This document shows, piece after piece, positions 41,163 through 47,023 of a stretch of DNA of 64,000 nt. The notes beneath the pieces are model-generated. The model saw only the letters and a program-made list of their open reading frames with translations, did not search any database and was not told the DNA's origin. Each line of letters starts with the position of its first letter. The stretch's first letter is position 1. The translations under genes were made by a program, and so were the position numbers. The stretch comes from Kiloniellales bacterium (lineage in GTDB: Bacteria; Pseudomonadota; Alphaproteobacteria; Kiloniellales; JAKSBE01): NCBI GenBank assembly GCA_030066685.1, contig JASJBF010000052.1, positions 62,001 through 126,000 of the forward strand, given 5' to 3'.

Positions 41163-42344
41163 ATGCGCCTGACGCCGCTGCACCGCAACCTGATCGCCAT
41201 CATGGTCACCATGGCCGCGGCGACCCTGACCTACAGCCTCTCGACGCCGCTCCTGAGCCTGATCCTCGACCGGCAGGGGGTCAGTGGCACCCTGATCGGG
41301 CTCAGCACGGCGAGCCAGGCGGTCGCGATCTTCGCCATCGCGCCCTTCGCCCCGGCCCTGCTGCGCCGCCTGGGCCCGGCCCGGCTGATGCTCGCCGCCA
41401 TCGCCCTGCAGCTGCTGTTCTTCCTGCTGCTGCCGGTCTTCCCCAACGTCTACGCCTGGTTTCCCCTGCGCTTCGTGATCGGCGCCGGGGCCAGCGTCAT
41501 GTGGGTGGCGAGCGAGGCCTGGGTCAACACGGTGGTCGAGGAACGGATCCGCGGCCGGGTGTTGGCCCTGTACAGCGCCGCGGTCACTGGCGGCTACGCC
41601 CTGGGCCCCCTGGTCCTGCTGGCGACCGGGAGCGAGGGCTGGGCGCCCTTCCTGGCCGGGGCGGCGATCTTCCTCTGCGCCGGGCTGGCGACCCTGTTCG
41701 GCGCCGGCGTCGCGCCCAGCCTCGACGGCAAGCCCTCGGCGCCGCTGCTCGCCTACCTCTACCTGGCCCCGCTGGCCATGCTGAGCTGCGCGGTGGTGGC
41801 CGCCAGCGACGGCGTGCTGGCCGCCTTCCTGCCGCTCTACGGCCTGGCCCAGGGCCTGAGCCAGGACCAGGGCCTGCTGCTCCTGACCCTGCTCGGCCTC
41901 GGCGGCGTCGCGCTGGAGTACCCCTTCGGCTGGCTGGCCGACCGGATGGACCGACGGTTGCTGTCCCTGCTGCTCAGCCTGGGGCTTCTGGCCGGCTGCC
42001 TCGCCTTCCCCTTCCTGGTGCCGATCCCCGGGGTCAACTGGGTCTTCATCTTCGTCTTCGGCGGCTGCCTGGGGGCCCTTTACACCCTGGGCAACGTCCT
42101 CATGGGCGAGCGATTCCGGGGCGGCGACCTGGCCGCCGCCAGCACGCTCTTCGCCACCATGTGGAACGTCGGCGCCCTGGTCGGGCCGCCCCTGGGCGGC
42201 CTGGGCCGGGACCTCTCGCCCGACCTCGGCCTGCCCGGCGCCCTGACCCTGGTCTTCGCCCTGTTTCTTGCGGTCCCCCTGGTCACATACCTGAAGCATC
42301 GCAAGAGCCAATCTCGAGATCCGGCCGACCTCGGCAAACCCTGA
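41163..42344 (+). CDS. MFS transporter, YcaD-like
   Basis: The 393-residue protein has about 12 transmembrane segments. The first cytoplasmic loop region and RRLGPARLMLAAIALQ, FPLRFVIGAGASVMWVASEAW, GRVLALYSAAVTGGYALGP and FGWLADRMDRRLL are typical of the YcaD/UMF subgroup of major facilitator proteins. Substrate is unknown. The C-terminus LKHRKSQSRDPADLGKP is cytoplasmic. An FNR-like site lies 17 bp past its stop and belongs to the next gene. Confidence 0.87.
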   Translation: MRLTPLHRNLIAIMVTMAAATLTYSLSTPLLSLILDRQGVSGTLIGLSTASQAVAIFAIAPFAPALLRRLGPARLMLAAIALQLLFFLLLPVFPNVYAWFPLRFVIGAGASVMWVASEAWVNTVVEERIRGRVLALYSAAVTGGYALGPLVLLATGSEGWAPFLAGAAIFLCAGLATLFGAGVAPSLDGKPSAPLLAYLYLAPLAMLSCAVVAASDGVLAAFLPLYGLAQGLSQDQGLLLLTLLGLGGVALEYPFGWLADRMDRRLLSLLLSLGLLAGCLAFPFLVPIPGVNWVFIFVFGGCLGALYTLGNVLMGERFRGGDLAAASTLFATMWNVGALVGPPLGGLGRDLSPDLGLPGALTLVFALFLAVPLVTYLKHRKSQSRDPADLGKP

Positions 42345-42360
42345 CTACGAATAGGGTCTT

Positions 42361-42374
42361 TTGATGTAGGTCAA
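42361..42374 (+). promoter_or_regulatory. FNR/FixK-type box
   Basis: TTGATGTAGGTCAA matches TTGAT-N4-(A/G)TCAA, the binding motif of FNR/FixK/FnrL-type oxygen-responsive regulators. It lies 64 bp upstream of a 38-codon gene. No clear -10 hexamer is visible at the expected spacing, which tempers the call. Confidence 0.6.
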
Positions 42375-42437
42375 TGATGCCTGCGGCGCGGCAGGCGCAG
42401 GCTGGAGGCTCGAATTCCAAGCTGGAGGTCCGAGCCG

Positions 42438-42554
42438 ATGCTCTTCGACGAGACCTTGTTCTTGACCGGTGTCCTGAGCGCCTTCACGATCTTCGCCCTC
42501 GTCCTGGCCTGGGTGTCGGTTGAAGACGCCCGCTACCGCAAGCGCAAAGGCTGA
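42438..42554 (+). CDS. 38-residue single-pass membrane peptide, possibly oxygen-regulated
   Basis: The short frame reads MLFDETLFLTGVLSAFTIFA then LVLAWVSVEDARYRKRKG. One transmembrane helix (residues ~6-27) and a basic C-terminus give an inside-positive, CcoQ/CydX-like layout. CTGGAGGTCCGAGCCG upstream includes GGAGG 11 bases before the ATG. The FNR/FixK-type box 64 bp upstream suggests low-oxygen expression. No oxidase genes are adjacent, so the partner is unknown. The gene call is based on topology, ribosome-binding site and the upstream box. Confidence 0.6.
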   Translation: MLFDETLFLTGVLSAFTIFALVLAWVSVEDARYRKRKG

Positions 42555-42649
42555 CCGCGGCGCGGGACAACGGTTTTACGGGACGGTCGCTGCGGCGTCC
42601 GCACCGGCAGGCTCTTCCGTCTGGGTGACGCTGGAGCCGATGCGGGGGA

Positions 42650-42686
42650 GAGGCAGCCCGCGCTTCCCAGCTTTCTGGGCTGCCTC
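42650..42686. terminator. hairpin, probable transcription terminator
   Basis: GAGGCAGCCC at 42650-42659 and GGGCTGCCTC at 42677-42686 form a perfect 10-bp stem with a 17-nt loop. It lies between the convergent 38-codon gene and the dienelactone hydrolase gene. There is no T-run, so it may act with Rho or as a 3'-end stabiliser. Confidence 0.5.
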
Positions 42687-42715
42687 GCCTTCCCCATTGG
42701 GCGCGGTGCCGCGCC

Positions 42716-43492
42716 TCAGCCTTGAAGATTGGCCGTGAAGAAGGCCAGGGTTCGCTCCCAGGCGAGCTTGGCATCAGCCTCGTCGTAGCGCGCGCTGGTC
42801 GGATTGGCGAAGGCGTGGTCGGCCTCGTACCAATGGTTGGTGGCGGTCTTGCCCGCCGCCTTCATGGCCGCCTCGAAACCGCTGACCATCTCCTCGTTGA
42901 TCCACTTGTCGCGGGTCGCGAAGTGCCCCAGAACCGGGCCCTCCAGGGCCTTGAGCTCCTCGGCCGTGCGATTGACCCGGCCGTAGTAGACCACGGTGGC
43001 GTCGACCGGCGTGGCGATCCCGGCGTTGAGCGACCAGCCGCCGCCGAAGCACCAGCCGACGGTCCCGACCTTGCCGCTGCCCTTGTCGTTGCCCTTGAGC
43101 CAGGCGACCCAGGAGACCAGGGTGTCGACCGCCTCCTCCGCGACGACGCCCTGCATGTAGGCCCGGGCCTGCTCGCGTTCGCCCGGTCCGGCGACCTTGC
43201 CGTCGTAGAGATCCACGGCGAGGGCCAGGTAGCCCTGGCCGGCGAGCTCGGCCGCGACCGCCTTGATCTGGTCGTTCAGGCCCCACCATTCGTGGATCAG
43301 CACCAGGGTCGGGGCCGGCGTGCTGGCCGGCAGGGCGAGCGCGGCCTTGACCGCCTTGCCGCCCTGAGTGGTGAGCTCGACCTCCTGTAGGCCGGCCGCG
43401 GCCGCCCGCGCCAGGCGCGGGTCGGCGAGGACGGCGGCCAGGGGCAGGCTGGCGAGGGACGTGACGACCTGGCGTCGGGCGAGTTGTGTCAT
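42716..43492 (-). CDS. dienelactone-hydrolase-family protein, exported
   Basis: The 258-residue protein starts at MTQLARRQVV, with a Tat-like or Sec leader (RRQVVTSLASLPLAAVLADP). The alpha/beta-hydrolase core has the dienelactone-hydrolase triad: nucleophile Cys in VGWCFGGGWS, Asp in FATRDKWIN and His in ADHAFAN. The N-terminal VLIHEWWGLNDQIKAVAAEL is a family signature. It could hydrolyse lactones or esters outside the cytoplasm. The substrate is not evident from the neighbours. Confidence 0.87.
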   Translation of the reverse strand: MTQLARRQVVTSLASLPLAAVLADPRLARAAAAGLQEVELTTQGGKAVKAALALPASTPAPTLVLIHEWWGLNDQIKAVAAELAGQGYLALAVDLYDGKVAGPGEREQARAYMQGVVAEEAVDTLVSWVAWLKGNDKGSGKVGTVGWCFGGGWSLNAGIATPVDATVVYYGRVNRTAEELKALEGPVLGHFATRDKWINEEMVSGFEAAMKAAGKTATNHWYEADHAFANPTSARYDEADAKLAWERTLAFFTANLQG

Positions 43493-45064: not shown

Positions 45065-46027
45065 CTAGTGTGGTGGTTCCGGAGACAGCCGAGCAAGCTC
45101 TTGGGCCAGGGCCTCCATGACCGGAACGAGGTCTTTCCCTCGACGCGCGTGTCGGGCGGAACTGGCACAGGAAGCCAGCAGGTCTCGGGCGTCTGACCCG
45201 CTCCCCTCCAGCGCGACCGTATAGATGACCATGCCTTGCCGCTTCATGGCCTTGCAGGCCCCAGCGAACTGCGCGTCGGCATCCGCGATGCCGATGTTGT
45301 CGAGCGCGCACTGGGGCGAGTTCCGGCCGTCCGTCACGATGACCACGACCTTGCGGGATCGGTCGTCCCCCTGGACCTCGCCCGGGGCCTCCGTATCCCC
45401 GTGCCATGCCCGCCACCACCGTGGTGACAGCGCACGCCAGGCCCAAACCGTTGCCAGGTCGACGCGGCTACAGCGTTTGGCAAAGGACAGCTGCCGGAGC
45501 CGTCTCGGCAGGGTCAGGAGCCACCGGGTCGGGCCGATCACGGCGTTGGGCGGACAGACCAGCTTCTTCAGGCGCTCCGGCCCTTGCGCCCAGTTGAAGT
45601 GCCGCAGCCGACCGGCCGCTAGGGGCCTATCGCCGCCGCCCAGCGTCCCCGCCCGCCCTTGCGGGCAAAGATACAGCCAGTCGGGTGGCGGCTGCGTGAA
45701 GAACTCTTCCCGGCCGCGCAGGTTGACCCGTCCGGCGAAGGGAATCACCGACAGCCAGAGCTGGTCGTCGGACCCGAAGAGGATCTCCAGCGGGGAATTG
45801 CCGCGCCCAGCTCTCAGGATTTCGACAAAGCGGGCGGAGGCTTCCCGCAAGGCTGCGTCCTTGCCGCCGATCCGCATGGACCCCGAGTTGTCGAGGACGA
45901 GCGCAACCTCGAGGCCGCGCGGCGGATCGGGGACCCGACCGCAGGTGCCGAGCGCAAAGCAGGACAAGACGGCGAGAAAGCAGGCGAAGACGATCAGAAG
46001 TACCGCCGAAAGGGCTCTCGGTGCCAT
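45065..46027 (-). CDS. TadG-like von Willebrand factor A lipoprotein (paralogue 1)
   Basis: The 320-residue protein has a hydrophobic leader ending in FALGTCGR, a possible lipobox. Next comes a von Willebrand A domain with MIDAS motif LVLDNSGSMRIGG, then VIPFAGRVNLRGREEFF and RVDLATVWAWRALSPRWWRA, and VVVIVTDGRNSPQCALDN. These last segments resemble the C-terminal half of TadG. It is about 60 bp downstream of a second copy with the same order of motifs, so the two arose by tandem duplication. No Tad pilus genes are nearby. It is likely envelope-anchored. Confidence 0.8.
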   Translation of the reverse strand: MAPRALSAVLLIVFACFLAVLSCFALGTCGRVPDPPRGLEVALVLDNSGSMRIGGKDAALREASARFVEILRAGRGNSPLEILFGSDDQLWLSVIPFAGRVNLRGREEFFTQPPPDWLYLCPQGRAGTLGGGDRPLAAGRLRHFNWAQGPERLKKLVCPPNAVIGPTRWLLTLPRRLRQLSFAKRCSRVDLATVWAWRALSPRWWRAWHGDTEAPGEVQGDDRSRKVVVIVTDGRNSPQCALDNIGIADADAQFAGACKAMKRQGMVIYTVALEGSGSDARDLLASCASSARHARRGKDLVPVMEALAQELARLSPEPPH

Positions 46028-46087: not shown

Positions 46088-47023
46088 TCAGGAGCTTGGC
46101 CGAAGGGCTGCGACCTCTCCGGCGAGTCGCTCGAAGAGGGCGATCAGGGCCTCACCGTCCGCGGCGTGATGCGCGCGACCGGAGGGGCCGGCGCAGCGGT
46201 CCAGCGTGTCCCACGGGCCCTCGAAGGTCCTGCCGAGATAGATGGTGTAGACCCGAATTCCCTGCCGCCGCATTTCCGCGCAGGCCGCCAGGAACTGCGC
46301 GTCGGCCTCCTTCCAGGTGAGCCGGTCCATGGCGCAGCTGGGCGTGTTGGCGCCGTCGGTCAGGAGGATCACGGCCTTGGCCGAGGGCCGAGACGGCACG
46401 GCCTCGGCCGCCGGATCGCCGTGCCAGGCCAGCCACCAGCGCGGCGACACGGCGCGCCAGCCCCAGATCGTCGCCAGGTCGAAGCGGGTGCAGCCGCCCC
46501 TGGCCTCGAGGCCCGAGACCGCGTCCTTCACCTCCCCCAGCCGGCGGGTCGGACCGACCATCGCCGCCGCCGGGCAAACGCGCTTGATCGGATAGCTCCT
46601 GCTGCTGAAGCGACCGATCGTCGGGTTGGGCAGCCTGCCGAGGGATAGCGGCGAATCGTCCTGTCCCAAGGCCCCTTTCCGCGGGTTCGGGCAGGCGAGC
46701 TGCGGATTGACCGGCTCCTTGTCGAAGAATTCCGGATGGGCCCTGAGGTTGACCCGGCCGCTGTAGGGAAGCAACGACAGCCAGAGCTCATCCGCGCGCG
46801 CGTCCGGGCGGCTCCGGGTCCAGCGCGCTTCCAAGACCTCGAGGAAGCGGGACGCGCCGGCCGTCAGGCCATCGAGCCGGCCGTCGACCGACATCGAGCC
46901 CGAGGTGTCGAGGACCAGGGCGACCTCAAGGCCCTGCGGCGGCTCGGGCGCGGAATCGCAGGAGGCGATGGCGAGGCCCCCAAGCAGCCAGAAGACGCCG
47001 GATCGCAGCTTTATCCGAAGCAT
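46088..47023 (-). CDS. TadG-like von Willebrand factor A lipoprotein (paralogue 2)
   Basis: The 311-residue protein has a lipobox (LAIASC), then LVLDTSGSMSVDG, LLPYSGRVNLRAHPEFFD, TRFDLATIWGWRAVSPRWWL, AVILLTDGANTPSCAMDRLT and IRVYTIYLG. The MIDAS residues DxSGS are intact, so metal-dependent ligand binding is plausible. It shares its architecture with the next gene, and conserved cysteines in both (CPxxRxG, CTRFD/CSRVD, SCAMD/QCALD) hint at disulfides. Ligand is unknown. Confidence 0.8.
   Translation of the reverse strand: MLRIKLRSGVFWLLGGLAIASCDSAPEPPQGLEVALVLDTSGSMSVDGRLDGLTAGASRFLEVLEARWTRSRPDARADELWLSLLPYSGRVNLRAHPEFFDKEPVNPQLACPNPRKGALGQDDSPLSLGRLPNPTIGRFSSRSYPIKRVCPAAAMVGPTRRLGEVKDAVSGLEARGGCTRFDLATIWGWRAVSPRWWLAWHGDPAAEAVPSRPSAKAVILLTDGANTPSCAMDRLTWKEADAQFLAACAEMRRQGIRVYTIYLGRTFEGPWDTLDRCAGPSGRAHHAADGEALIALFERLAGEVAALRPSS

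Follow-up and report, generated by a model that had tools for sequence, protein, structure and literature searches.

CcoQ/FixQ is a small single-helix protein of the FNR/FixK regulon. CydX and the related small subunits of cytochrome bd are likewise small, with a single helix and a role at low oxygen, and CcoM of the Pseudomonas stutzeri cbb3 oxidase also has one helix. CcoM, which is 36 residues long, has been linked to oxygen limitation (PMC10433244). In mitochondria, the hypoxia-linked small membrane factors HIGD1 and Rcf1 are described as modulators of cytochrome c oxidase (PMC7762129). The core FNR/FixK/DNR regulons of Alphaproteobacteria have been reconstructed with a shared target sequence for the three regulators, and the targets given there include cco, hemN, usp, and CBS-domain genes (PMC2908626). 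In Bradyrhizobium diazoefficiens, the small hypothetical protein bsr7087 is described as FixK2-activated and encoded beside hemN2 (PMC9104804). Here we analyzed a stretch of 64,000 nucleotides (the window) on contig C52 of a Kiloniellales bacterium. The earlier note on this DNA had proposed an undescribed micropeptide behind an FNR/FixK-type box. The proposal is now strongly supported: the frame, the box, and the spacing between them are conserved, the layout is promoter-like, and no known family was found in Pfam, NCBIfam, PDB sequences, or the literature searched.

Results

Layout of the micropeptide locus

A near-consensus box had been reported 64 nt ahead of a 38-residue frame; both are present (Table 1), and the gap between the box and the ATG is in fact 63 nt. 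The frame runs from ATG to TGA and encodes MLFDETLFLTGVLSAFTIFALVLAWVSVEDARYRKRKG. The box, TTGATGTAGGTCAA, differs from TTGATNNNNATCAA by one mismatch, and every other match in the window has at least two; it is also the window's sole exact TTGAYN4RTCAA and its sole exact TTGAYNNNNRTCAA. At up to two mismatches to TTGATNNNNATCAA, the window contains 17 matches vs. 4.06 in shuffled sequence, and loose matches therefore mean little. The exact TTGAYN4RTCAA occurs 56 times in the whole genome vs. 6 times for a reversed control, so that most of these genomic sites are probably real. As is the case for FNR/FixK-type regulons, this near-palindromic motif lies upstream of the gene and is kept in relatives.

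Table 1. Features of the micropeptide locus in window coordinates.
Feature	Position	Strand	Basis
FNR/FixK/DNR-type box TTGATGTAGGTCAA	42361..42374	+	Sequence; kept at 63 nt in the same-genus genomes G001 and G002, and across the class
Probable -10 hexamer CAGGCT	42398..42403	+	Readable at the same place in 3/3 genus sequences
Ribosome-binding site GGAGG, 9 nt before ATG	42424..42428	+	Sequence
38-codon gene, predicted single-helix membrane peptide with acidic N-terminus and basic tail	42438..42554	+	Homologues, purifying selection, helix model

When 35 promoters were aligned on the box, position +24 past the box was A in 57% and position +28 was T in 71%, both columns being picked post hoc. 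They would form an xAnnnT-like -10 element, which would place the box near -41.5 in a class II FNR layout. Judged from the aligned promoters, transcription may start ∼35 nt after the box and leave a leader of ∼20-30 nt; at this locus the start would fall a few nt past CAGGCT, which in the genus trio is shifted away from the box by one base relative to the class consensus. By eye, many of the aligned leaders have a G-rich stretch similar to GGAGG at this position before the start codon. A generic promoter scan found no sigma-70 site at the locus or in the window, including the CAGGCT position. The terminator scan returned a single terminator-like site (42338-42357), with a similar number in shuffled sequence, and a search of Rfam over 42250-42800 gave a single match below the gathering score.

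The neighbors are a same-strand MFS transporter gene upstream and a convergent dienelactone hydrolase-family gene on the other side, and the peptide gene therefore appears to stand alone. A GC-rich hairpin without a T run (GAGGCAGCCC...GGGCTGCCTC, 42650-42686) was noticed by eye between the peptide gene and the dienelactone hydrolase-family gene. Elsewhere in the window, two adjacent look-alike frames on the minus strand (45065-46027 and 46088-47023; 320 and 311 residues) read by eye like von Willebrand-type proteins (DNSGSM/DTSGSM), perhaps as a tandem duplication.

Occurrence of the peptide in Alphaproteobacteria

A protein search of 98 genomes (genomes are designated by G numbers below) matched six: the source genome, two of the same genus (73 and 76% peptide identity), and three from other families of the order (41-52%). 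The profile search of the class (387 genomes) matched 56 genomes at E <= 0.01 and 45 at E <= 1e-3. After removal of G219 and G222, whose matches are embedded in long frames (336 and 271 residues), 43/387 genomes were counted as carriers (profile A3, E <= 1e-3); G243, below 1e-3 with profile A2 and absent with A3, was left uncounted. The set of 387 genomes was taken as identical across the profile searches and the ccoN search, as tallies and handles agree. The order profile matched 25 genomes at E <= 0.1, and 16 were retained by judgement of the peptide, three of them at E 0.002-0.004 (G048, G053, and G014). Nine weak matches were dropped, G036 with its exact box included. Three of the 16 are also in the class draw; the other 13 were added to the 43, giving 56 loci. 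A candidate in G064, with no clear start and no exact box, was not counted.

The phylum search matched 6/219 genomes, all of the same class, the number of genomes from outside the class among the 219 not being established. Four of the matches are new carriers outside the 56 loci: G597 and G544 have an exact box 54-56 nt upstream, G631 has a one-mismatch box, and no box was seen at the peptide locus of G525. The 8.8-Mb genome G597 encodes three paralogues of the peptide (L212, L214, and L215), each preceded at 54 nt by an exact FNR-type box (for L215 the match start was taken as the start). A species-genome collection was also scanned for the box followed after 45-75 nt by a start like MT..E..YL, which gave 28 places. 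At 24 of these, peptides of 30-58 residues that read as one-helix family members are encoded with the box 52-67 nt upstream; 19 are in records named for alphaproteobacterial groups (Kiloniellaceae, Pelagibius, Denitrobaculum, Aquibaculum, Reyranella, Hyphomicrobium, Hyphomicrobiaceae, Anderseniella, Rhodospirillales, and similar) and 5 are in MAGs named only 'Proteobacteria'. At the remaining four places (Pseudomonas, two Muricauda, and Methylomicrobium) something else is encoded. Seven of the 24 genomes appear to overlap with the profile-search set (G008, G011, G012, G048, G052, G053, and G117). Protein search of annotated plasmids gave no match to the peptide.

The box and the peptide are kept together

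Conservation in relatives, which the earlier note had put forward as a check, joins the peptide to the box: an exact box is found 40-100 nt upstream at 39/56 loci, and a box with at most one mismatch at 45/56. The distance is 53-64 nt in 35 of the 39 exact-box loci. The background of 10 exact boxes per 292,816 bases of the same loci amounts to 0.002 expected per locus. An exact box is present in 31 of the 43 class-draw carriers and absent from 12; with up to one mismatch allowed, the figures are 36 and 7. In G043 the contig ends 78 nt upstream of the peptide gene. Profile A3 includes members chosen for having the box and its box share is somewhat flattered, so the loci of profile A2 give a cleaner figure: 27 of its 30 best class loci lie outside A2 itself, and these carry an exact box in 16 cases and a box with at most one mismatch in 20.

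In G001 and G002, two other species of the genus, the box lies exactly 63 nt before the ATG. Ungapped identity within the genus is 75-83% in the coding region, 22-35% in the 120 nt after the stop, and 26-33% in the region 101-220 nt upstream. A box fixed at 63 nt despite such low flank identity settles the observation as real by conservation. We concluded that the locus almost certainly comprises a conserved gene with its own FNR-type box, which probably brings about induction of the gene at low oxygen.

Constraint on the frame and predicted structure

The frame is under purifying selection, with dN/dS of 0.16-0.23 within the genus. Five close pairs (G011/G052, G171/G257, and G069/G191/G403 taken pairwise) gave pN of 0.00-0.04 vs. 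pS of 0.13-0.62, and the pairs G011/G048, G171/G329, and G223/G368 gave pN of 0.08-0.12 vs. pS of 0.59-0.75. The exception is G238/G440 (pN 0.33 vs. pS 0.41), where little constraint is seen.

Structure prediction from the single sequence gave one helix over residues 2-37 (pLDDT 90.7), and in 45/54 distinct peptides the C-terminal tail carries more positive charge than the N-terminus, in agreement with the single helix and basic tail described earlier. By the positive-inside rule the basic tail is probably cytoplasmic, and the acidic N-terminus would face the periplasm. In 44 aligned members, the positions most conserved after M1 are L9, F19, Y/F8, L23, E5, F16, and V12, followed closely by A15 and A24, and conservation follows the helical period (100 degrees; permutation p 0.013). 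The face formed by E5, Y/F8, L9, V12, F16, F19, and L23 may thus pack sideways against a larger membrane protein.

Searches of Pfam and NCBIfam with the peptide gave no match, and those with five members and then with all 44 members of A3 gave scattered weak matches only. In particular, no Pfam or NCBIfam small bd subunit was matched by the peptide or was among the matches of the 44 members; PF05545 (CcoQ/FixQ) was matched by 1/44 at E 0.15; and for the CcoM profile NF041600 the best of the 44 reached E 0.011 and 16.2 bits vs. a cut-off of 40, with no match up to E 1 for the other 43. Profile searches of PDB sequences gave four weak matches in all, none above chance. Our literature search found no description of this peptide family, which is apparently undescribed.

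Oxidase content and gene neighborhood of the carriers

In the source genome ccoN is on contig C2 and ctaD on C14, and the window is on C52; the statement in the earlier note that no oxidase genes are near therefore holds for both. The ccoN match is itself preceded by an exact box, at ∼190 bp. A search of this genome for cydA gave nothing at E <= 1e-30, and identity of the peptide with CydX was rejected on that ground. The region 111126-160589 of C2 has nine exact FNR-type boxes in ∼50 kb and holds ccoN together with genes that read as Lon-type and FtsH-type proteases and nicotinate phosphoribosyltransferase; it is possibly a low-oxygen island of the source genome.

ccoN (E <= 1e-50) was found in 32/43 carriers vs. 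139/344 other class genomes (Fisher p 3e-5, shared ancestry ignored). At the same threshold it was absent from 11/43 carriers, including G248 (one contig, 100% completeness, exact box), and an obligate cbb3 subunit was rejected for this reason. Twenty-three of 43 carriers were positive for cydA (E <= 1e-30) and 20 were not, the source genome among the latter. Neither gene was found in seven carriers, four of which have an exact box (G176, G248, G331, and G349), one a one-mismatch box (G410), and two none (G131 and G175). Each of the seven has one COX1-family gene with a CtaD score over the cut-off, and in the four with an exact box aa3 is the only terminal oxidase detected. ctaD (E <= 1e-100) was found in 42/43 carriers, including all 11 without ccoN, in which COX1 was also found by a second search; the draft genome G440 is the sole carrier without it, and the match in G261 is partial and under the cut-off. 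ctaD was also present in 34/37 non-carriers tested, so its presence identifies no partner. The carriers without ccoN and without cydA indicate that the peptide does not belong as a subunit to the cbb3 oxidase alone or to the bd oxidase alone. By exclusion, a single partner, if any, would be common to almost all these genomes, e.g., aa3, bc1, or another housekeeping membrane complex.

For gene context, 52 stretches of 5-18 kb around the candidates were taken. Clustering of the neighbors in the first 40 stretches and the window detected no widely shared neighbor gene; the largest cluster, an ABC-type ATPase as judged by eye, was present in 12/41 stretches at scattered distances, and the next cluster had 8. 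In G448 the peptide gene, with its box, is flanked by a usp gene on one side and by hemN-fnrL-ccoN-ccoO on the other. In G275 the peptide precedes genes with best NCBIfam matches to FixL (below cut-off), FixJ (over), and FixK (below). A Crp/Fnr-type gene is nearby in G424 and G131, where FixL/FixJ-like genes were read from the sequence. Context was also judged from sequence alone in G394, in which the peptide follows a cco cluster, and in G343 and G188. Some copies lie near cco, hemN, usp, and CBS-domain genes, the setting of the FNR/FixK regulons as described in PMC2908626. An 80-residue piece of FnrL, a weak probe, matched 12/43 carriers and not the source genome, in which an FNR/FixK regulator was not located. 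The bsr7087 protein might be a relative of the family.

Discussion

Our best reading, held tentatively, is that the peptide is a hypoxia-induced single-helix accessory protein on a widely present membrane complex, probably a respiratory one. A Crp/Fnr-family activator of the FNR, FixK, or DNR type would bind near -41.5 and switch on the stand-alone gene at low oxygen, and the product, a small single-pass inner-membrane protein, would pack laterally, by one helix face, on a larger membrane protein. As the likeliest partner we propose a respiratory complex that nearly every carrier has (the aa3-type cytochrome c oxidase, bc1, or a supercomplex including cbb3 where present), which the peptide would stabilize or retune as oxygen becomes low. 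Such a mode of action would resemble that of CcoM, CydX, or the mitochondrial hypoxic oxidase factors, to which the peptide has no detectable relation. A narrower form, in which the FNR-induced peptide binds the housekeeping aa3-type oxidase (or a bc1-oxidase supercomplex) and changes its activity or stability as oxygen falls, would explain the exact box and peptide in the four carriers with aa3 as the only terminal oxidase detected; as a specific claim we regard it as unlikely. If true, it would make the peptide a class-wide bacterial counterpart of hypoxic oxidase subunit switching.

The main alternatives differ in the partner. The peptide may be a low-oxygen membrane peptide with a non-respiratory partner; for example, it might modulate a transporter, the FtsH protease, or a sensor kinase, or be a membrane-stress peptide. 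The lack of a widely shared gene neighbor and the carriers without ccoN and cydA are in line with this, as are the other boxes of the source genome near Lon-type and FtsH-type protease and usp genes (by eye) and the Fix-type sensor genes adjoining the peptide in several genomes. No particular partner is indicated, however, and the informative contexts are of the cbb3, hemN, fnr, and fixLJK type; we consider this alternative rather unlikely. We rate slightly lower the reading that the peptide serves the cbb3-type oxidase specifically, either as a small subunit or in its assembly, as a CcoM-like helix whose gene lies outside the cco operon. It is favored by the higher frequency of ccoN among carriers, by the peptide inside a cco cluster in G448 and after one in G394 (read from sequence), by the single sub-threshold CcoM match among 44 members, and by the exact box ahead of ccoN in the source genome. 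On the other hand, ccoN is missing in 11 carriers, G248 with its exact box among them, 43 members have no CcoM match, and the association, calculated without regard to shared ancestry, may exist only because both cbb3 and the peptide need a Crp/Fnr activator.

A small subunit of cytochrome bd of the CydX kind, suggested by size, single helix, and probable low-oxygen regulation, is highly improbable: no cydA was found at E <= 1e-30 in 20/43 carriers in all, including the source genome, the peptide has no Pfam match, and no such family is among the matches of the 44 members. We give almost no credence to an unrelated box ahead of a spurious frame: loose box matches are common in the window (17 vs. 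4.06 in shuffled sequence), but coincidence is contradicted by the conservation of box and peptide together across the class, by the narrow range of spacing, and by purifying selection, and a chance box was rejected by exact boxes at 39/56 loci vs. 0.002 expected per locus. A conserved, probably hypoxic micropeptide tied to neither cbb3 nor bd points to one more level at which respiration may be adjusted. Despite the earlier reconstruction of the alphaproteobacterial FNR/FixK regulons (PMC2908626), an apparent member in about one-ninth of the sampled class genomes seems unnamed, probably because most members are shorter than 45 codons.

The likeness to CcoQ and CydX drawn in the earlier note stands for size and probable regulation; it fails for sequence match, oxidase operon, and cydA, and the peptide occurs without ccoN and cydA. 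Like CcoQ/FixQ, the peptide is small, has a single helix, and is preceded by an FNR/FixK-type box, but it has no match to the PF05545 profile and is encoded outside ccoNOQP, with ccoN on another contig. It shares with CydX the size, the single helix, and probably the low-oxygen regulation; unlike CydX, it has no sequence match to the bd small subunits, no cydA was found in its host, and it lies outside any oxidase operon. CcoM (NF041600) is of about the same length, ∼36 residues, with one helix and a link to oxygen limitation. The peptide differs in having no match to NF041600, and its family also occurs in genomes without ccoN: a cbb3 oxidase was found in the source genome and in 32/43 carriers but not in the other 11. 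With the core FNR/FixK/DNR regulons it has in common the target sequence and, for some copies, proximity to their targets; PMC2908626 names only some hypothetical proteins, and among those named there is no micropeptide of this kind. The peptide has one helix, unlike HIGD1/Rcf1, and the Pfam scans, the only comparison of homology made, listed no HIG1 family; the likeness to HIGD1/Rcf1 is in idea only, that of a hypoxia-linked small membrane protein which would tune cytochrome c oxidase.
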